Part shown: in pieces, positions 2,585 through 30,536 of the stretch
Position numbering within the stretch: position 1 is the stretch's first letter
How the letters are laid out: each line of letters opens with the position of its first letter
From: an uncultured bacterium
GTDB taxonomy: Bacteria > Bacillota_I > Bacilli_A > RFN20 > CAG-826
Direction: 5' to 3'
DNA: 36,818 nucleotides
NCBI GenBank assembly: GCA_949299335.1
Contig: CASGAD010000003.1
Coordinates: forward strand, 1 to 36,818
The notes under the pieces: model-generated
Told to the model about the DNA's origin: nothing
Database searches by the model: none
The model's input: the letters and a program-made list of their open reading frames with translations, nothing else
Translations under genes and position numbers: made by a program

Positions 2585-4012
2585 CTAATATGCTTTTGCA
2601 AATAATACCACGTATTTTGCTTTTTTCCCGCAAATCGGACATTTATCGTCAAATTCTACCTGATCAAATGGTATGCATCTTGCAGTAGCATTTGTTAATT
2701 CTTTAATTTTATCTTCACATGCTTGATCACCACACCACATCATCTTTGCATATCCACATTTATCAACAACTTCCTTAAGTTCTTCAAAAGTATGAACTTC
2801 TTTAATATTAGCTAATAAATTCTTCAATGCGGCATTATACATCTCTTTATGAATAGTGGCTAATAAATCTTTAACTAAATCACTAATATTATTTAATTCA
2901 TATTTAGTTCTTGTTCCATCGTTTCTTTTATGAATCATACAACAATTATTAGCTAAATCTTTTGGTCCAACTTCAATTCTTAAAGGAACACCCTTCATCT
3001 CATATTCGCTAAATTTCCATCCAGGTGTTTTATCACTATCATCTAATTTTACTCTAAATCCGGCATTGATTAATTCATCTCTAATTTCTTTTGCCTTAGC
3101 TAAAACTCCAGGTTCATTCATTTTAATAGGAACAATTACTACTTGGATAGGTGCTACATAAGGAGGTAACACCAAACCATTATCATCGCCATGAACCATT
3201 ATAATAGATCCAATTAATCGTGTAGAAACACCCCAACTAGTTTGATATGGATTTTTTATCTTTCCATCTTTATCTAAGTATTGGATTCCAAATGCTTTTG
3301 AAAAACCATTTCCAAAATAATGAGTCGTTCCGCTTTGTAAAGCTTTCCCATCATGCATCAAAGCTTCTATTGAATATGTCTCTAAAGCTCCAGCAAATTT
3401 TTCTTTTTCTGTTTTTCTTCCTTTAACAAATGGCACTGCAAGTAAATCTTTTCCCATTTTATCGTAAATTTCAAGCATTCTTAAAGTCTCTTGTCTAGCT
3501 TCATCTTCGCTTGCATGCATTGTATGACCTTCTTGCCGTAAGAATTCACTTCCTCTTAAAAATGGTCTCGTAGTCTTTTCCCATCTTACAACAGAACACC
3601 ATTGGTTATAAAGTTTAGGTAAGTCTCTATAAGAATTAATAATATGAGAATAATGTTCGCAAAATAAACATTCACTTGTAGGTCTAATAATTAATCTATC
3701 TTGAATTTCTTGTCCACCACCAATAGTAGCAATTAAACATTCTGGGGCAAATCCTTCAACATGATCTTTTTCTTTTTGAAAAAGAGACTCATTAATAACA
3801 AGTGGCAAATAAACATTTTCATGCCCTGTCTTTTTAAATTCTTTATCTAAATAATGTTGAATTTCTTCCCAAATCGCATAACCATATGGTCTATAGATTA
3901 TAAAGCCCTTAACAGCTGAATAATCCATTAATTCAGCCTTTTTGCACACATCTGTATACCATCTAGCAAAATCTTCATCTCTACTAGTAATTGATTTATT
4001 TTTGATATCCAT
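2585..4012 (-). CDS. proS: Prolyl-tRNA synthetase, archaeal/eukaryotic type
   Basis: Class II aminoacyl-tRNA synthetase that charges tRNA-Pro. The 475-aa form lacks the bacterial editing insertion and has the archaeal-type C-terminal zinc domain: CGDQAC followed by CPICG before the terminal tyrosine (LFAKAY). Class II motif 2 is visible (RWEKTTRPFLRGSEFLRQEGHT, split here as RWEKT and RPFLRGSEF), and motif 3 lies near SWGVSTRLIG. I chose the ATG at 4012 because GAGGG lies 7-8 nt upstream of it and the protein then begins in the usual way before ITSRDEDFARWY. An in-frame ATG at 4027 overlaps the preceding gene by 4 nt. It is probably co-transcribed with that upstream membrane protein. This ProRS type is common in Firmicutes and Mollicutes. 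Confidence 0.96.
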   Translation of the reverse strand: MDIKNKSITSRDEDFARWYTDVCKKAELMDYSAVKGFIIYRPYGYAIWEEIQHYLDKEFKKTGHENVYLPLVINESLFQKEKDHVEGFAPECLIATIGGGQEIQDRLIIRPTSECLFCEHYSHIINSYRDLPKLYNQWCSVVRWEKTTRPFLRGSEFLRQEGHTMHASEDEARQETLRMLEIYDKMGKDLLAVPFVKGRKTEKEKFAGALETYSIEALMHDGKALQSGTTHYFGNGFSKAFGIQYLDKDGKIKNPYQTSWGVSTRLIGSIIMVHGDDNGLVLPPYVAPIQVVIVPIKMNEPGVLAKAKEIRDELINAGFRVKLDDSDKTPGWKFSEYEMKGVPLRIEVGPKDLANNCCMIHKRNDGTRTKYELNNISDLVKDLLATIHKEMYNAALKNLLANIKEVHTFEELKEVVDKCGYAKMMWCGDQACEDKIKELTNATARCIPFDQVEFDDKCPICGKKAKYVVLFAKAY

Positions 4013-4023
4013 AGTAATTTCCC

Positions 4024-5802
4024 TCATTTCTTATACATATTCAAAAGTTTTTTCACAACTCTCTTATCAACTGGCATTAACATTGGTGAGGTCTCTGCGA
4101 TAACCTCACTAGAGAATAAATATACTCCACTTTTAACCAATAATTCAACTTCATTCCATGAAGTAGAATTAACACTTACAATTGGAGTCTTAAATTTAAC
4201 AAGTTTATCTAACATAGCTCTTGTAACTAAGAATTCTCTATTTTCACCTTTTGTCCCACCTTGCGGTTTGGTATTTATCATAAATCCATCAAACAAACTA
4301 TAGGTTGCACTTCTTAGATTATAGTCTCCGTTGTTTATAGTAACGTAAACTTCATAATCTCTAGATTGTAATGTTTTAATATTATTAATAAGTGTTACAT
4401 TTGTTTCACTATCAACAAAATCATTATTTTGAATAATTACTGCAATTTTAGTATTAGTAGCTAGATTCATGTGTGGAAGACTCCTAAGCACATATTGTAT
4501 TTCATGTATTTTAATAGGTATAAAAAGCCTCAAATTGTTATTATCTTTTTCGTTATTAAATGTAGGAATCATTTTTCTAGTAATCATAGAAAATAATTCT
4601 TTATCTAAATTATATTTAAGAGCATATTTTTTAACTTCATCTATTGTTTCAAAAATAGAGCCTTTTGGTCTGACTTTTGCGATATATCCTAAAGTTAAAA
4701 CACGTTTATTTGCTATTTTTACTAATGGTGAAAACCCTAGATTTATAAGTTGCATCCTAATAATTTTATTAACTTCAGCTTTATAGCTTTCTTCAACATT
4801 TCTATTTTCTCGATTATCGTTTTTATATAAAAGAAAATCTTTTCCATCATCTCTCATTAAGTGAGAAACGTTTTTAAGAGTTTCGTGAGCTTTTATAAAA
4901 TCACTATCTAATTCAGAAGTTTTACTTCCAACAATGGAAAATTCGTAAAAGGTTTTGAATCCATGAACTTCTAATATTTCATTAATGGATCTCACCATAG
5001 ATTTCATTTCTCTGTTAATTTGAAAATCATTTTGCCATTTTGTATTCAATACTGTCATTTCTAAAGGGTTATCATCGTTTAATAAAACATAGAAAGATAG
5101 AGCGTTTTTCTTTTGATATATAGCATTTAAAACAATGTATCGATATTCGTATTCATTAATTCTAGGATTAGTGTTTGCTTTTCTATAAAAGTCTATAATG
5201 TATATACTGCCTTTTTGAAATAAACCATGTGCATAAAACCTCGCTATTTCACTAACAAGAAAAGTATCTTTTTTAAAAATTCCCTTTTTAATACGATTGT
5301 ATTCACTAGGTAAATTGTTTAATAAAACACTATCTAGATAAATCATGCCCTTAGCTTTATCAATAACATTTACATTAAATAAAATACGTGAACAATATGA
5401 TTTAATTTGATCTTGCATCTTAATATCAGTAATAAAAGTTAATTTGTCAGGTGTTAAGATTTCGTTTTGTTGATACATATCTAAGAGCCAGTTATTGAAT
5501 TTGTTTTGTTCTTTATCCTCAAGCATCTTTAAAAAATCAGTGTATGAAATTTTAATAATATCTTTTAAATTTCTAAAACTAAAATATTCAACGCTTTGTG
5601 ATTTGAAATCAATGATAAAAGTCCTGTTTATATTAAATTTACGTTTTAAATATTCGCTATATTCAATTTCCTTTTTCTTGGTTACTAAAATAGTTATAAC
5701 TAGCGAAATAAGTCCAACTGAAAGTACAACAATGATAAAAATTAAGAATGGCATTGCGCCATCTTGAATATTTTGTAGCGTGCTGAAAAAAGGTATTTTC
5801 AT
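4024..5802 (-). CDS. Membrane-anchored degenerate GGDEF-EAL-like protein
   Basis: 592 aa. One N-terminal membrane helix (about 18-41) is followed by a PAS-like segment (about 75-130). A GGDEF-like fold follows (about 190-335): IYIIDFYRKAN fits the first strand, and EFSIVGSKTS plus a helix and GKDFLLYKND fit the SIGxA-to-Gxxxxxxy tail. A C-terminal EAL-like barrel follows (about 345-590). No GGDEF motif is present, and the EAL position reads GYIAKVR, so the catalytic Glu is lost. The late strands LFDGFMINTK and TPIVSVNSTSWNEVELL fit EAL strands 6-7. It is therefore probably a receptor or scaffold rather than an enzyme. The domain reading is inference from fold pattern. The start at 5802 is preferred because a -10 box precedes it and the membrane helix follows; an upstream ATG lies at 5838. 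The stop is TGA. Confidence 0.72.
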   Translation of the reverse strand: MKIPFFSTLQNIQDGAMPFLIFIIVVLSVGLISLVITILVTKKKEIEYSEYLKRKFNINRTFIIDFKSQSVEYFSFRNLKDIIKISYTDFLKMLEDKEQNKFNNWLLDMYQQNEILTPDKLTFITDIKMQDQIKSYCSRILFNVNVIDKAKGMIYLDSVLLNNLPSEYNRIKKGIFKKDTFLVSEIARFYAHGLFQKGSIYIIDFYRKANTNPRINEYEYRYIVLNAIYQKKNALSFYVLLNDDNPLEMTVLNTKWQNDFQINREMKSMVRSINEILEVHGFKTFYEFSIVGSKTSELDSDFIKAHETLKNVSHLMRDDGKDFLLYKNDNRENRNVEESYKAEVNKIIRMQLINLGFSPLVKIANKRVLTLGYIAKVRPKGSIFETIDEVKKYALKYNLDKELFSMITRKMIPTFNNEKDNNNLRLFIPIKIHEIQYVLRSLPHMNLATNTKIAVIIQNNDFVDSETNVTLINNIKTLQSRDYEVYVTINNGDYNLRSATYSLFDGFMINTKPQGGTKGENREFLVTRAMLDKLVKFKTPIVSVNSTSWNEVELLVKSGVYLFSSEVIAETSPMLMPVDKRVVKKLLNMYKK

Positions 5803-5809
5803 ATTTGTT

Positions 5810-5817
5810 ATTTTATA
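5810..5817 (-). promoter_or_regulatory. -10 box next to the start of the GGDEF-EAL-like gene
   Basis: The minus strand reads TATAAAAT just before the ATG at 5802. The hexamer TAAAAT ends 7 nt from the ATG and TATAAA ends 9 nt from it. There is no Shine-Dalgarno, so the transcript may be leaderless. Confidence 0.4.
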
Positions 5818-5869
5818 ACAAATACTGGCAAATCTCAAATTTATATATGCAGAAGGTATTTTTTATTTG

Positions 5870-5884: not shown

Positions 5885-5973
5885 GGAGAAATACCCAAGC
5901 GGCTGAAGGGGTCAGTTTCGAAAACTGATAGAGGTGAAAGCCTGCGGGGGTTCAAATCCCCCTTTCTCCGCCA
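5885..5973 (+). tRNA. tRNA-Ser(CGA)
   Basis: The 7-bp acceptor stem GGAGAAA / TTTCTCC is followed by discriminator G and an encoded CCA. Anticodon stem TCAGT/ACTGA closes the loop TTCGAAA, giving anticodon CGA, which reads UCG. A long variable arm and the T-arm GGGGGTTCAAATCCCCC are typical of tRNA-Ser. The acceptor and T arms are nearly identical to the tRNA-Ser(GGA) at 30606. Confidence 0.97.
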
Positions 5974-6020: not shown

Positions 6021-6054
6021 AAAAAAAGGCGCACAAATTGGTGCGTCCTTTTTT
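6021..6054 (-). terminator. Terminator of the nfnAB operon
   Basis: A GC-rich stem (GGCGCAC / GTGCGTCC, one bulge) is flanked by A-run and T-run arms. It lies 16 nt past the nfnB stop, and its symmetry would let it work on both strands. Confidence 0.85.
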
Positions 6055-6069
6055 ATAATTTAAGTTACT

Positions 6070-7482
6070 TTATTTAGCACTTAATTCTTCATCAATTGCT
6101 TTAGCAGCTGCTTTACCAGCTCCCATAGCTAATATAACAGTAGCGGCTCCAGTGACAGCATCACCACCAGCATAAACGTGATCACGTGATGTTAAACCAG
6201 ATTCACCTTTAGTAATGATACATCCGTGAGGATTTGTTTCAAGACCTTCGGTTGTATGTTTAATTAATGGATTTGGAGATGTGCCGATTGAGCAAATAAC
6301 ACAGTCAACATCAAGTGTTCTATATTGTCCTGTTCCGACTGGTCTTCTTCTTCCACCTGCATCAGGTTCACCAAGTTCCATAATCTCAACTTTAATTTTA
6401 GAAACTAAATGTGTCTCAGGATCACCGATAATTTCAACTGGATTATTGAGCAATTGGAAATCAACTCCTTCTTCCATAGCGTGATGAACTTCTTCTTTTC
6501 TAGCTGGGAGTTCTTCTAAACTTCTACGATAAATAATGTAAACGTGCTCGGCGCCTAATCTTAAAGCACATCTAGCAGCATCCATAGCAACATTTCCACC
6601 ACCAATAACAGCAACATTTTTAGCGTGTTCAATAGGTGTATTACTATCTTCACGATAAGCTTTCATTAAATTTGTTCTTGTAAGATATTCATTAGCGGAA
6701 TAGACACCTTTTAAATTCTCTCCAGGAATTCCCATAAATCTTGGAAGTCCTGCTCCAGAACCAATAAAAATTGCCTCAAAATGATATTCTTGCAATAATT
6801 CATCAATAGTAATTACTCTTCCAATTACCATGTTTGTTTCGATCTTAACACCTAAAGCTTTTAAGCCATCGACTTCTTTTTGAACAATTGACTTTGGCAA
6901 TCTAAATTCAGGAATACCATAAACAAGAACACCACCAGCCAAGTGCAAAGCTTCGAAAATAGTTACATCATAGCCTTTCTTAGCTAAATCACCTGCACAA
7001 GTTAAGCCTGAAGGTCCAGAACCAATAACAGCAACTTTGTGGCCGTTAGAAACTGGTTTTTTAACTTCGTTTTTTGCATGAGCATTGTGGTAATCAGCAA
7101 CAAAACGCTCTAATCTTCCGATAGCAACAGGCTCACTTCCAGCTTTTAATCCTCTTGTACATTTCATTTCACACTGAGTCTCTTGAGGACAAACTCTACC
7201 GCAAACTGCTGGTAAAGAACTAGACTCAGAAATAATGTTATATGCTTCTTCAAAATTGCCTAAAGCAACTTGATGAATAAATCCTGGAATATTGATATTA
7301 ACAGGACAATGTGCAATACATGGTGTATTTGGGCATCCTAAACATCTTTTTGCTTCATCAATAGCCATTTCCTCTGTGTAACCTTCAGCAACTTCTTTAA
7401 AGTTGTGAGCTCTTACCTTTGGATCTTGGCTTGGCATAGGATTCTTTTTAGGAGCCATATTTGGCTTATATTCCTTAAACAT
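6070..7482 (-). CDS. nfnB: NfnB / GltD-like FAD- and Fe-S-containing NADPH oxidoreductase subunit
   Basis: The large subunit of NADH-dependent reduced ferredoxin:NADP+ oxidoreductase, homologous to the small subunit of glutamate synthase (often annotated gltA). 470 aa. N-terminal 4Fe-4S ligands are in CLGCPNTPCIAHCPVN and CGRVCPQETQCEMKC (about 47-110). A first dinucleotide fold with AVIGSGPSGLTCAG (about 150) binds FAD, and a second with AVIGGGNVAMDAAR (about 290) binds NADP(H). C-terminal YAGGDAVTGAATV contacts FAD. Its ATG overlaps the nfnA stop as TAATG, so the two are translationally coupled. No GltB-type large glutamate synthase subunit is nearby, and the NfnA partner makes Nfn/transhydrogenase the better call. 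The complex is cytosolic and balances NADH, NADPH and ferredoxin in anaerobes. Confidence 0.93.
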   Translation of the reverse strand: MFKEYKPNMAPKKNPMPSQDPKVRAHNFKEVAEGYTEEMAIDEAKRCLGCPNTPCIAHCPVNINIPGFIHQVALGNFEEAYNIISESSSLPAVCGRVCPQETQCEMKCTRGLKAGSEPVAIGRLERFVADYHNAHAKNEVKKPVSNGHKVAVIGSGPSGLTCAGDLAKKGYDVTIFEALHLAGGVLVYGIPEFRLPKSIVQKEVDGLKALGVKIETNMVIGRVITIDELLQEYHFEAIFIGSGAGLPRFMGIPGENLKGVYSANEYLTRTNLMKAYREDSNTPIEHAKNVAVIGGGNVAMDAARCALRLGAEHVYIIYRRSLEELPARKEEVHHAMEEGVDFQLLNNPVEIIGDPETHLVSKIKVEIMELGEPDAGGRRRPVGTGQYRTLDVDCVICSIGTSPNPLIKHTTEGLETNPHGCIITKGESGLTSRDHVYAGGDAVTGAATVILAMGAGKAAAKAIDEELSAK

Positions 7483-13464: not shown

Positions 13465-14268
13465 TTAGTATTTAACAAAATTGTTAAAGGCGTAGATGAC
13501 CCCACCGTCATCTACGTTTTTTGTTATGAATTTAGCAACATCTTTACATTCTTTTGTTGCATTGCCCATAGCAATCCCATTATATTCTTTAATCATTTCT
13601 ACATCATTTCCAGAATCACCAAAAGTATAAATATCTTCATAATTAAGAGAAAGGTATTCCTTTAAAAAAGCCACTCCTTCACTTTTATCTGTATTTTTAT
13701 TGATAAATTCAATGAAGATTGAACTAGTTCTTAATACTTTAAAATTAGTTTTCTCCTCTTTTGTTATGTACTTTTCGCACTCCAATGAAAATTCTTTAGT
13801 TGTGGCAATCATAAATTTCAAAATTGGATAATTCAAATCAAAGTCTCTCCCAGTTAAGTTAATCATCTTATAATTCCCATTATAATAACTCTCACTTTCA
13901 ATAAATTTATCAAGTTTTAAATACCCGATACCCTCAGACAAATAAACATATATATTTGTATGCTCATGATTAAATATATTTTTATGGTTATCAATAAATT
14001 TATAATAGTCGCCTAGTTCTATAGTTTCGCTAAAGAGTACATTGCCATCTATATCTCTGACTTCTGCTCCATTAGCACAAATACAAAACTTATGTCCGTC
14101 TTCCAAAAAATTAAAATATTTTTTTATACCTGTAAATGGACGCCCACTAGCAATTGCGATTGCATCTCCGTTTCTTAAAATTCTATTCAGCAAAATAATG
14201 GTTTCTTCTTTTAAAATTTGATCTCTCCCCACTAATGTACCATCTACATCAAATACAAATAATTTCAT
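13465..14268 (-). CDS. Cof-type HAD-superfamily phosphatase
   Basis: 267-aa cytosolic HAD hydrolase of the Cof/YidA class II type, which dephosphorylates small sugar phosphates, flavin mononucleotide or similar. Motif I is FVFDVDGTL (Asp nucleophile near residue 6), motif II AIASGRPFTG (about 39), motif III the Lys in DKSEG (about 193) and motif IV TFGDSGNDVEM (about 215); the C2-type cap lies between motifs II and III. A second Cof-type paralogue is at 32285-33118. It has TATAAT exactly 6 nt before the ATG and no Shine-Dalgarno, so it is probably leaderless. Its last 20 codons contain the terminator of the convergent degV gene. Confidence 0.93.
   Translation of the reverse strand: MKLFVFDVDGTLVGRDQILKEETIILLNRILRNGDAIAIASGRPFTGIKKYFNFLEDGHKFCICANGAEVRDIDGNVLFSETIELGDYYKFIDNHKNIFNHEHTNIYVYLSEGIGYLKLDKFIESESYYNGNYKMINLTGRDFDLNYPILKFMIATTKEFSLECEKYITKEEKTNFKVLRTSSIFIEFINKNTDKSEGVAFLKEYLSLNYEDIYTFGDSGNDVEMIKEYNGIAMGNATKECKDVAKFITKNVDDGGVIYAFNNFVKY
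13489..13522 (+). terminator. degV terminator embedded in HAD coding sequence
   Basis: Perfect 10-bp stem CGTAGATGAC / GTCATCTACG, 6-nt loop CCCACC, then TTTTTT on the plus strand. It lies 77 nt past the degV stop and inside the 3' end of the opposing HAD gene, where it encodes the VDDGGVIYAF stretch. Confidence 0.88.
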
Positions 14269-27465: not shown

Positions 27466-29175
27466 TTACTTAATGTCTAGAACCTTCTTTAATGAAGTAT
27501 ATGCCTTATCGCATCTTTCTTCAGCCACTTCTAATGACTTATCAACCATTTCTACATAGAATTTACATTTTGGTTCAGTTCCACTAGGTCTAACTGAAAT
27601 ATTGCTACCATCTACAAATATAAATTTGATTAAGTCCCCTACTGGTAAGTTTGGAATCTTTTCAACTTCATTTGTTTCCAAATTTGTTCTTGTTAATTTG
27701 AAGTAATTTTCAACGTATTTAACCTTATTACCATCAAGTTCAGTTATTGGATGTTCTTCTAATTCGTCCATAATCTTTTTCATTTCTTCTTGGCCTTCAG
27801 ATCCTTTGAAGTAAATATTATAAAGTTTAGACTTATAATTTCCGTATGTCTTACCTAAATTTCTATAAGCTTCGTCAAGGGTAATACCTTTTAATTTGTA
27901 GAATAAAGCCATTTCACAATAGAGTAATATAGCTTGAATGCCGTCTTTATCTCTAACAAAATCTTTGATTAAGCAGCCATAACTTTCTTCATATCCAAAA
28001 AGGAAACTTGGACCACCATTAACTTCATAATAGTGGATTCTATCCCCAATATATTTAAATCCTGTTAAAAATGCCTCGATTTTAACATTATAGTGATGAC
28101 AAATTGCTGCTCCTAAAGAAGAAGAAACAACCGTGTTATAAACTACACTATTGTTTAAGTTTTCACATTTTTTCAATTTTTCTGAAATAATGTAATCTAA
28201 TAAAATAGCTGCACTTTCGTTTCCAGTAAGTAGAACATATTCACCTTGTCTATTTTTGCAAGCCAAACCAACTCTATCTCCATCTGGATCTGTCATACAA
28301 ATAAGGTCAGCATCAATACTTTTTGCTAATTTAATAGGTTCGATGTAAGAATCTTTATTTTCAGGATTAGGAGATAATGTTCCACTAAAAGCTGGGTCAG
28401 GATTACACTGAGATAATACTGGGTGAACATCATATCCACAATCTTTAAATACTCTCATAGCATTTACATAGCTAGTTCCATGATTTGGAGTATATACAAT
28501 CTTAAAATTCTTTTTATTTAAATCAGGATTAATTTGAACTTGTTTACAAAGTTCAACATAAGTATCATCAACATCTTTCCCTAGTATTTCGTTTTTACCT
28601 ACAACTTTACCAGCAGGAACTTGAAGAGTTAGTTCATCCCCCAATGTTGTAATAATGTCGATCAAATCTTTAATTTTCGATGGGACTAATTGGCAACCTT
28701 CCTCATCATAAACCTTAAATCCATTATCTTCTTTAGGGTTATGACTTGCAGTAATCATAATTCCACCGCTGCATTTTTTATATCTTACTGCATAAGAAAG
28801 TTCTGGTGTAGGTCGTAAAGAATCAAAAATATAAGTATTAATTCCCATCTTATTAAGAATATCTGCACATTCTAAAGTAAATTCTCTACTCATATAACGA
28901 TTATCATGACTAATCGCACAACTTTGTGGTGCTTTATAATGTTTTAATAAATAAAGTCCGAAACCAACACAAGCTTTCTTAATTGTATAAATATTCATTC
29001 TATTTGTTCCAGGTCCAAGAACTCCTCTCATGCCTGCGGTACCAAATTGAATATTTTTAAAGAACGCATCATCAATTTCATTATCGCTCATCTTTTTTAG
29101 TAGTGCTTTATCCTCATCACTAATAACTGGAGAATTTAACCATCTATTATAATTTTCTAACGTAAATTTATCCAT
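27466..29175 (-). CDS. pgcA: Alpha-phosphoglucomutase / phosphomannomutase
   Basis: 569 aa, alpha-D-phosphohexomutase superfamily of the PgcA (long) type; interconverts glucose-1-phosphate and glucose-6-phosphate. Landmarks are FGTAGMRGVLGPG (about 45), the phosphoserine loop IMITASHNPKEDNGFKVY (about 138), the metal loop TDPDGDRVGLA (about 300), the sugar loop GYEESYGC (about 398) and the phosphate-binding SVRPSGTEPKCKFY (about 530). The ATG at 29175 has AAGGAG 7 nt upstream and is preferred over the in-frame ATG at 29193, which lies upstream of that Shine-Dalgarno. It would connect galactose and glycogen-type sugar phosphates from the glycosidase operon to glycolysis. Confidence 0.96.
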   Translation of the reverse strand: MDKFTLENYNRWLNSPVISDEDKALLKKMSDNEIDDAFFKNIQFGTAGMRGVLGPGTNRMNIYTIKKACVGFGLYLLKHYKAPQSCAISHDNRYMSREFTLECADILNKMGINTYIFDSLRPTPELSYAVRYKKCSGGIMITASHNPKEDNGFKVYDEEGCQLVPSKIKDLIDIITTLGDELTLQVPAGKVVGKNEILGKDVDDTYVELCKQVQINPDLNKKNFKIVYTPNHGTSYVNAMRVFKDCGYDVHPVLSQCNPDPAFSGTLSPNPENKDSYIEPIKLAKSIDADLICMTDPDGDRVGLACKNRQGEYVLLTGNESAAILLDYIISEKLKKCENLNNSVVYNTVVSSSLGAAICHHYNVKIEAFLTGFKYIGDRIHYYEVNGGPSFLFGYEESYGCLIKDFVRDKDGIQAILLYCEMALFYKLKGITLDEAYRNLGKTYGNYKSKLYNIYFKGSEGQEEMKKIMDELEEHPITELDGNKVKYVENYFKLTRTNLETNEVEKIPNLPVGDLIKFIFVDGSNISVRPSGTEPKCKFYVEMVDKSLEVAEERCDKAYTSLKKVLDIK

Positions 29176-29263
29176 ACTATGCTCCTTAAACATTAATTAA
29201 ATTATATAAAATTGAAAAAACATAATATATAAAAATATAGTGCTTTTTATTAAAAATTTAGAA

Positions 29264-30241
29264 TTATTTAGTAGCCTCCAAACCTAATGACTTTAATATT
29301 TCCTCATCTTTTGGAAATAAATTTGCAACATATGTTTTATTAGACAAATATGAAAGTATACCACTTACATCAATAAACTGAACTTTATAGGCATGTAAAA
29401 ATTGATAATGATAATTAAACTTTTCATCAAAAATCTTGTTTAAAGAAAAATCACCATATTTTTGATCACCAACTATTGGATGACCGATATAAGAAAAGTG
29501 AACTCTTAATTGGTGCGTTCTACCAGTTATTAAATCAGCTTCAACTAAAGAATATGAATAATTACAAGTTAATAACTTATATTTTGTTATTGCTCTTTTC
29601 GCTCCCCTATCTACACTTCCAACTTTAACAAACCCTGTGTCTGAATCTTTAATTAATGGGGCTTCTATCGTTCCTTTTTCATCAGTTTTCCCTTTTAAAA
29701 GCGCTAAATAACTTTTTTTAATATTTTCATGTGTTTTAAATAAATCCATTAGTATTTGACTTGATTCAACATTTTTAGCATATATTACAAGTCCACTAGT
29801 ATTTCTATCAAGTCGATGACATGGCGATGGCACAAAGCCTTCACCATCAGGAATATACTCACCCTTCTTATATAAATAAGATAACACCATATTTGAAAGT
29901 GTTATCCTTTTTTCGCTTTCATCACCATGGATTAAAAGCCCTTTTGGTTTATTCACTATTAAAATATTTTTATCTTCATAAACAATTTGAAAAGTAGCTT
30001 TAATATCTTCAATTTTTTTAGGCTTATTAAATTCAGAAAGCTGTTCATCCGTAACATAAATACGCAAAACATCATTATTTTGCAAAATATAGTTTTCCTT
30101 GACCCAGTGACCATTAATCTTTATATCTTTTTTTCTAAAAAGTTTATAAATAAAGCTTAATGGTGCTTCATTAAGAAATTTGCGTACAAATTTATCTATT
30201 CTTTGATTGCAATTTTCACCAGTTATTTTAATTTCTTTCAT
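29264..30241 (-). CDS. RluC/RluD-family 23S rRNA pseudouridine synthase
   Basis: 325 aa with an N-terminal S4 RNA-binding domain (about 10-75: RIDKFVRKFL, INGHWVKENYILQNND) followed by the pseudouridine synthase catalytic domain. The catalytic Asp is in CHRLDRNTSGLVIYAK (about 140-155), with LLIHGDE, GRTHQLRVHFSYIGHPIVGD and QFLHAYKVQF as further motifs. RluC-like rather than RluD-like cannot be settled from sequence alone. It overlaps the MGMT-like gene's end by 14 nt, so the two form an operon; no Shine-Dalgarno is evident at its ATG. Confidence 0.94.
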   Translation of the reverse strand: MKEIKITGENCNQRIDKFVRKFLNEAPLSFIYKLFRKKDIKINGHWVKENYILQNNDVLRIYVTDEQLSEFNKPKKIEDIKATFQIVYEDKNILIVNKPKGLLIHGDESEKRITLSNMVLSYLYKKGEYIPDGEGFVPSPCHRLDRNTSGLVIYAKNVESSQILMDLFKTHENIKKSYLALLKGKTDEKGTIEAPLIKDSDTGFVKVGSVDRGAKRAITKYKLLTCNYSYSLVEADLITGRTHQLRVHFSYIGHPIVGDQKYGDFSLNKIFDEKFNYHYQFLHAYKVQFIDVSGILSYLSNKTYVANLFPKDEEILKSLGLEATK

Positions 30242-30536
30242 ACTTAAATCTATATTTCCCTAAATCAACTTTATAATTTAATACTTCTATGCCCTCTTCT
30301 TCAAGAAGTTTCCTTTGCCCTTCTTTTCCACCAAAAGCATAATTATTTGCTAACATCCCTTCATTATTAACAACCTTATAACAAGGGTATATTTTTGCGT
30401 TTTCATTTTTATGTAATGCATTTCCAACGGCTCTATAAGCTTTTGGCTTATTTAAAATAATTGCAATATCTTTATAAGTTAAGACTTTACCTTTTGGAAT
30501 TAAAAGCAATACATTTAAAACATCATCTTTAAACAT
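30228..30536 (-). CDS. MGMT / alkyltransferase-like protein (ATL)
   Basis: 102 aa, only the DNA-binding C-terminal domain of O6-alkylguanine-DNA alkyltransferase. The winged-helix core IPKGKVLTYKDIAIILNKP and YRAVGNAL (recognition helix with its Arg finger) is clear. The active-site motif PCHRV is PCYKV: Cys52 is kept, but His becomes Tyr and Arg becomes Lys. Activity is thus uncertain; ATLs that lack the Cys flag O6-alkylguanine for nucleotide excision repair. The YAFGGKEGQRKLLEEEG segment is the usual C-terminal loop. TATAAT lies exactly 6 nt before the ATG, with no Shine-Dalgarno. Confidence 0.88.
   Translation of the reverse strand: MFKDDVLNVLLLIPKGKVLTYKDIAIILNKPKAYRAVGNALHKNENAKIYPCYKVVNNEGMLANNYAFGGKEGQRKLLEEEGIEVLNYKVDLGKYRFKYERN

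Follow-up and report, generated by a model that had tools for sequence, protein, structure and literature searches.

The window analysed here, a 36,818-nucleotide stretch of DNA from an uncultured gut bacterium (genome of 1.417 Mb, 37 contigs, 98.3% complete), carries a minus-strand gene for a membrane protein with PAS-like, GGDEF-like and EAL-like domains. The gene is followed by proS and lies head-to-head with a tRNA-Ser gene. The features of the locus and the evidence for each are as follows.

2585..4012, minus strand: proS, family I (TIGR00408) prolyl-tRNA synthetase (ProRS), 475 residues; the start given is common to most relatives, and the mechanical open reading frame begins at 4027.
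4024..5802, minus strand: gene of the doubly degenerate PAS-GGDEF-EAL membrane protein, 592 residues, ATG start.
4027..4797, minus strand: EAL-like barrel, residues 336-592, inactive (AlphaFold2, Foldseek, VIA, hhalign).
4675..4683, minus strand: place of the EAL motif, I374-A-K376, reading IAK (81-member profile alignment).
4825..5256, minus strand: GGDEF-like domain, residues 183-326, inactive (AlphaFold2, VIA, hhalign, Pfam GGDEF in relatives).
5056..5070, minus strand: place of the GGDEF motif, N245-P-L-E-M249, reading NPLEM (81-member profile alignment).
5296..5628, minus strand: PAS-like domain, residues 59-169 (AlphaFold2 model, PAS part folded alone, Foldseek).
5635..5757, minus strand: N-terminal helix (membrane helix and linker), residues 16-56 (AlphaFold2 model; hydrophobic stretch by eye).
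5803..5823, minus strand: 21-nt dyad ATTTGTTATAAAATAACAAAT abutting the ATG, with a -10-like TAAAAT in its centre (dyad and promoter scans).
5885..5973, plus strand: tRNA-Ser(CGA), head-to-head with the degenerate gene (Rfam scan, neighbour count).

The mechanical open reading frame of the degenerate gene reaches a TTG at 5838, which would give 604 residues. This TTG doubles as the first bases of a -35-like TTGAGA, from which the promoter scan counts 17 nt of spacing to TAAAAT; the last base of TAAAAT is at 5810, seven bases ahead of the ATG at 5800-5802 (minus strand). Since the TTG also begins the -35-like box, the ATG at 5802, which the first-pass annotation had chosen (592 residues), seems to be the better start. 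Since TAAAAT lies inside a dyad at the ATG, a leaderless mRNA is possible. On its own, the promoter scan was at chance level (2 sites found versus 1.4 expected from shuffles), and we therefore infer, rather than observe, both the ATG start and the leaderless mRNA.

The dyad scored 9, and none of the other 28 window genes tested exceeded 8. It has no second copy on either strand of the window, where the search returned only the site itself, and 7 of 100 shuffles reach two matches. A clear dyad is confined to part of the genus (the window, L031, L139-L141, L007, L009 and L023) plus L102; L006 and L019 have different dyads, and many other loci show none. In some relatives within the genus, another sequence with the same symmetry is present (AATTTAGTATATAATACTAAATT and ACTTTAGTATATAATACTAAAGT), and both arms have changed together. 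This pattern suggests an operator or a structured start, while a chance palindrome in AT-rich sequence is possible. TATAAT-like boxes lie a few bases before the start at the 5803-5823 site and at the genes 13465-14268, 27466-29193 and 30228-30536 (minus), and a Shine-Dalgarno-like word precedes 12 of the 29 window genes. The combination of a TATAAT-like box near the start with the lack of a Shine-Dalgarno-like word suggests that this genome may use leaderless mRNAs widely. On the far side of the tRNA-Ser(CGA), between it and the convergent gene 6070-7482, a hairpin at 6028-6047 with T-runs on both strands is likely a bidirectional terminator (2 sites found versus 0.2 expected).

The ancestry of the protein is hardly recognizable from the single sequence. 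Searches of the window protein with Pfam, NCBIfam and phmmer against PDB gave nothing significant, and PADLOC gave nothing. A profile of 29 members searched against PDB sequences returned one match (E 0.37), taken as chance. Among relatives the signal is stronger. With an E limit of 0.1, 11 of 29 family members match Pfam EAL (best 5.6e-9), and Pfam GGDEF matches two of the five more distant members scanned, L167 at 4.2e-10 (over the cut-off) and L102, which adjoins proS, at 4.2e-5 (at the cut-off). When the profile was aligned by hhalign with active EAL (8) and GGDEF (7) domains of the same bacterial family as the window, 81 members gave a probability of 97.4 for EAL (E 5e-11) and 85 for GGDEF (E 6e-6); 29 members gave only weak probabilities of 27 and 12, the 81-member set being more diverged.

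The predicted structure is in line with these matches. The AlphaFold2 model, built from an alignment of the window protein and 17 relatives (18 rows), has a mean pLDDT of 79.9 and a pTM of 0.46, and we named its domains from the order of strands and helices. Foldseek of the model against PDB placed GGDEF-EAL proteins on top, with DosP at E 4.9e-17, followed by the GGDEF-EAL part of PA0575 (1.8e-16), LapD (7e-15) and the PAS-GGDEF-EAL protein PA0861 (7.4e-15). VIA-align superposed residues 180-579 of the model, covering both domains, on PA0575 with Z 23.5; the rmsd of 11.3 reflects a different relative domain placement. The EAL domain of BifA aligned with Z 23.4 and rmsd 2.6 over 235 residues. 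When the PAS part was folded alone (pLDDT 80.7), its best Foldseek match was the FixL PAS domain, a weak one (E 9e-4, TM 0.5), and the next were mostly PAS/LOV chains at E 0.003-0.06. Residues 59-169 were assigned a PAS fold on these weak but consistent matches. The EAL superfamily fold is supported by Foldseek, VIA and hhalign and by Pfam EAL in relatives, and the GGDEF superfamily fold by VIA over 180-579, by hhalign and by Pfam GGDEF in L167 and L102. The order of membrane helix, PAS-like, GGDEF-like and EAL-like parts, which the first-pass annotation had proposed from the sequence alone, was thus recovered by AlphaFold2, Foldseek and VIA, and the comparison with known structures that it had called for found both the GGDEF and the EAL fold.

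Neither domain retains a recognizable active site. We read the catalytic positions off the hhalign profile alignment of the 81 members with active EAL and GGDEF domains, scoring eight EAL residues (EAL motif, N, E, DD, K, E, Q); the literal pattern E[AVGIL]L is unspecific, and its count was disregarded. The window protein has none of the eight, as have 29 of the 81 members, and the maximum among the 81 is four. The KxD lysine occurs in 0/81 members, and the catalytic Q is replaced by serine in 56. By this count the window protein lacks the residues of an active EAL phosphodiesterase. The pattern GG[DE][DE]F occurs in 0/81 members, and with it the GG(D/E)EF signature of an active diguanylate cyclase is absent. 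According to PMC10333796, degenerate domains bind c-di-GMP through two motifs, ExLxR and RxxD, and LapD and FimX carry ExLxR. In the window protein family, ExLxR, the receptor motif of the LapD/FimX type, was found in 0/81 members, and so was RxxD, the search for which was limited to the window's columns immediately ahead of the loop. The protein could conceivably bind a ligand through unfamiliar residues.

The c-di-GMP machinery is also missing from the genome as far as the searches for GGDEF, EAL and PilZ reach. Neither GGDEF (control: 8 of 14 known genomes match) nor EAL (control: 6 of 14) has a match in the window genome, and PilZ has none in 26 genomes of the window's genus (0/26; control: 5 of 14). 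GGDEF matches were found in only 4 of 23 genus genomes and in 102 of 196 family genomes, leaving 94 without. These are incomplete metagenome-assembled genomes, and for no individual genome is a lack of GGDEF certain. On contig 11 of one family genome (G083, 153934-159990), GGDEF and EAL matches fall in what is apparently one unusually large open frame of 2357 residues.

The degenerate protein, on the other hand, is kept almost everywhere. Matches to it occur in 184 of 196 family genomes and in all 23 genomes of the genus; 172 of the 184 have one and 12 have two, where some doubles may be one split gene. In G089, two copies (contigs 41 and 49) each lie directly upstream of their own proS, reflecting a duplication or a mixed bin. 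Among the 94 family genomes without GGDEF, 88 matched the protein at the first search and 91 after closer reading. The additions are G092 and G101, in both of which the gene precedes proS, and G001, whose full-length candidate is very diverged (E 1e-6 to the family profile, the bias term far exceeding the score). The remaining three (G013, G042 and G169) also have no family I proS match, and therefore the locus is probably missing from their bins. More generally, nine of the 12 family genomes without a protein match at the first search have no close family I proS. A biological co-absence of the protein and proS was rejected, since ProRS is indispensable and the other ProRS type was found in 0/9 of them at E 1e-60; these nine bins most likely miss the locus. 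Two family genomes, G003 and G142, have a weak protein match and no family I proS match. The extremely diverged G001 candidate, of 539 residues and overlapping proS by 11 nt, lies at L158 5448-7067 in a 0.4-Mb (66% complete) family genome. Across the order, the profile finds the gene in 221 of 245 genomes sampled and, at the class level, in 57 of 395, with only weak matches outside the order (E 6e-11 or worse). The dN/dS ratio is 0.072 for the window against L031 and 0.068-0.099 for four further pairs (~0.07-0.10 in all five), rough values because dS is high. The gene is a functional core gene under strong purifying selection.

Family I ProRS is the eukaryote-like type, and the window enzyme scores 566 bits to TIGR00408. 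With the proS start at 4012, the window has 11 nt between the degenerate gene and proS. In all 135 family genomes tabulated, the gene immediately precedes proS on the same strand, with 34-106 nt between the match ends, and two genomes outside the 135 (G180 and G111) show the same order; of a further 59 of the 196 left untabulated, 11 lack a family I match and the rest have no recorded position for one of the two genes. The close coupling to proS emphasized in the first-pass annotation is therefore a property of the family. For a comparison with other neighbours, 35 loci were picked for flank length from the window's family (f1), order-level loci being excluded. While proS is next in 35 of 35, the commonest other neighbour family reaches 7/30 at position -1, 7/28 at -2 and 5/31 at +2. 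Since the other neighbours are scrambled and proS is fixed, the linkage is not just slow shuffling. The proS link is also present in 7/7 genomes read of family f5 and 1/1 of f2, and absent in 9/9 genomes read of f3 and in the single f4 genome; in family f8, G207 has a different gene next, and G202 is without any close family I proS. In 2 of 196 family genomes (G080, at L148, and G104, at L149), a bacterial-type ProRS (TIGR00409) accompanies the family I enzyme, perhaps as a spare or as a resistance gene.

The tRNA-Ser neighbour has a different distribution. A tRNA-Ser(CGA) in the same orientation lies within 260 nt in 46 of the 53 f1 members having at least 300 nt upstream and is missing in seven; in this survey, loci without a family label were counted as f1 (at most L040 and L045-L047, from named contigs). 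The same arrangement occurs in 6/9 loci of f3, 2/6 of f5, 1/1 of f2 and 0/1 of f4. Thus, the tRNA link spans families, and the proS link is fixed within the window's family. On the other side, 20 of the 42 f1 loci with sufficient sequence have a tRNA-Ser(GCU) after proS. A scan of the upstream regions (8 sources) found no T-box or other Rfam leader, with only tRNAs reaching the gathering score; weak leader-RNA matches were far under the cut-offs and were treated as chance.

On the basis of the fold, the motif loss, the retention, the purifying selection and the linkage, all of them established results, we favour, at somewhat better than even confidence, a reading in which this core gene encodes a membrane-anchored descendant of a PAS-GGDEF-EAL protein with both sites dead, serving as a c-di-GMP-independent sensor or scaffold and forming a two-gene unit with proS. 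The ancestor would have been a PAS-GGDEF-EAL c-di-GMP enzyme that lost both catalytic sites, and c-di-GMP would no longer be used. The membrane helix and the PAS domain may sense a signal, and the pseudo-GGDEF/pseudo-EAL body would relay it without chemistry, as a scaffold, by binding a protein or RNA partner. The gene would head the unit and be transcribed together with proS, so that co-expression with ProRS is probable, from a probably leaderless promoter head-to-head with tRNA-Ser(CGA). Given the gene's constant position next to proS and tRNA-Ser, the tRNA-charging machinery is the first candidate for the partner, a speculative assignment, and direct action on tRNA charging is possible as far as gene order can suggest it. 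The description of a double-degenerate GGDEF-EAL protein closely coupled to proS in the first-pass annotation, including the absent GGDEF, the IAK in place of EAL and the lack of visible c-di-GMP partners, agrees with our results (NPLEM at 245-249, IAK at 374-376, no GGDEF, EAL or PilZ match). Its suggestion of a c-di-GMP receptor finds no support, since ExLxR and RxxD are absent from the 81 members and genomes in which GGDEF has no match still keep the protein. Scaffold or regulator is the best reading among the roles it had suggested, and a receptor for some other nucleotide, which it also named, is conceivable.

The linkage to proS may stem from a promoter shared with an essential gene, which can explain it equally and does not imply a shared function. 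In this strongest rival explanation, proS has no promoter of its own, the pair is inseparable for that reason, and the upstream protein works in the envelope or in signalling, independently of proS. The 11-nt gap in the window and the f3 members that live without adjoining proS fit such an arrangement, and we give it a substantial probability, short of even; the link to a tRNA-Ser(CGA) on the opposite strand, found also in 6/9 f3 loci, is left unexplained by it. Another proposal is that the protein is a membrane-bound partner of prolyl-tRNA synthetase or the serine tRNA and adjusts charging to a membrane or redox signal detected by PAS; this is a bolder form of the favoured explanation and not exclusive of it. 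Its arguments are the 135/135 upstream placements, the head-to-head tRNA-Ser(CGA) in 46/53, the tRNA-Ser(GCU) after proS in 20/42 and the lack of conservation of other neighbours. All of these are gene order, and the f3 gene lies away from proS in 9/9 genomes read; we consider this proposal rather unlikely. Unlikely, too, is the widest form of the idea, that across a whole order of gut Bacilli a dead c-di-GMP enzyme became a membrane-bound, PAS-sensing translation regulator, made together with ProRS near tRNA-Ser, which would tune tRNA charging or ribosome behaviour to the membrane state and has outlived the loss of c-di-GMP.

The other two alternatives concern the protein itself. A LapD- or FimX-like receptor for c-di-GMP or another cyclic dinucleotide, with a ligand supplied by an undetected cyclase, by neighbours or in the form of c-di-AMP, would be in keeping with the structural matches to modules of the LapD, FimX, PA0575 and DosP type and with GGDEF matches in about half of the family genomes (102/196). 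We consider it improbable, since both receptor motifs occur in 0/81 members, the protein is kept where GGDEF has no match, and PilZ is found in none of 26 genus genomes. The loss of both catalytic motifs, in a genome with no c-di-GMP enzyme match left, could also mark a functionless, decaying remnant of a c-di-GMP enzyme. This is scarcely credible for a gene that has long open frames among the matches listed, is under strong purifying selection in all five pairs and survives, in very diverged form, even in a 0.4-Mb genome.

The favoured reading, a c-di-GMP-independent sensor or scaffold, has a parallel in CsrD of E. coli, a degenerate GGDEF-EAL protein that directs CsrB/CsrC RNA to RNase E. 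In PMC10333796, CsrD is described as working without c-di-GMP in E. coli and as having the layout GAPES4-HAMP-dGGDEF-dEAL with the motif EXMXR, and YdiV-like EAL proteins and CsrD are precedents for action without turnover. CsrD and the window protein share a dead GGDEF and a dead EAL domain; the window protein differs in the PAS-like domain before GGDEF, in the motif IxKxR and in the adjacent proS. It has no Pfam match to a GAPES4-HAMP N-terminal part, the PAS-like domain standing there instead. LapD and FimX have the GGDEF-EAL fold in common with it, and LapD is among the best structural matches, but their ExLxR occurs in none of the 81 members. DosP and PA0861, at Foldseek ranks 1 and 5, share the PAS-GGDEF-EAL order. 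They are enzymes, whereas the window protein has all eight catalytic EAL positions changed and an added membrane helix. GdpP is a c-di-AMP phosphodiesterase of Gram-positive bacteria with a membrane part, a PAS domain and a degenerate GGDEF domain, and ends in DHH-DHHA1. The window protein resembles it in the first three parts and differs at the C-terminus, which is an EAL-like barrel; Pfam gives no DHH match in the window protein.

Neither the fold family nor the concept of a degenerate GGDEF-EAL regulator is new. Among the literature matches listed, the titles and abstract openings report no degenerate GGDEF-EAL gene beside proS, and to that extent there is no earlier report of a PAS-containing core subfamily that is linked to proS and tRNA-Ser and retained in the absence of c-di-GMP enzymes. 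Degenerate GGDEF-EAL proteins have mostly been studied in bacteria rich in c-di-GMP, where a continued response to c-di-GMP is hard to judge. Since the present protein is a core gene product in genomes seemingly without c-di-GMP synthesis, a c-di-GMP-independent job can be tested directly, and the fixed neighbourhood of proS and tRNA-Ser offers a concrete first partner for such tests.

The loss of activity itself may be traceable. In L167 9155-10855 (family f4), the GGDEF domain is still recognizable (Pfam 40 bits), and its motif, read by eye, is already altered. To judge from their sequences, L167 and L102 seem to stand between active enzymes and the window protein, and L167 is a good intermediate for tracing how activity was lost.
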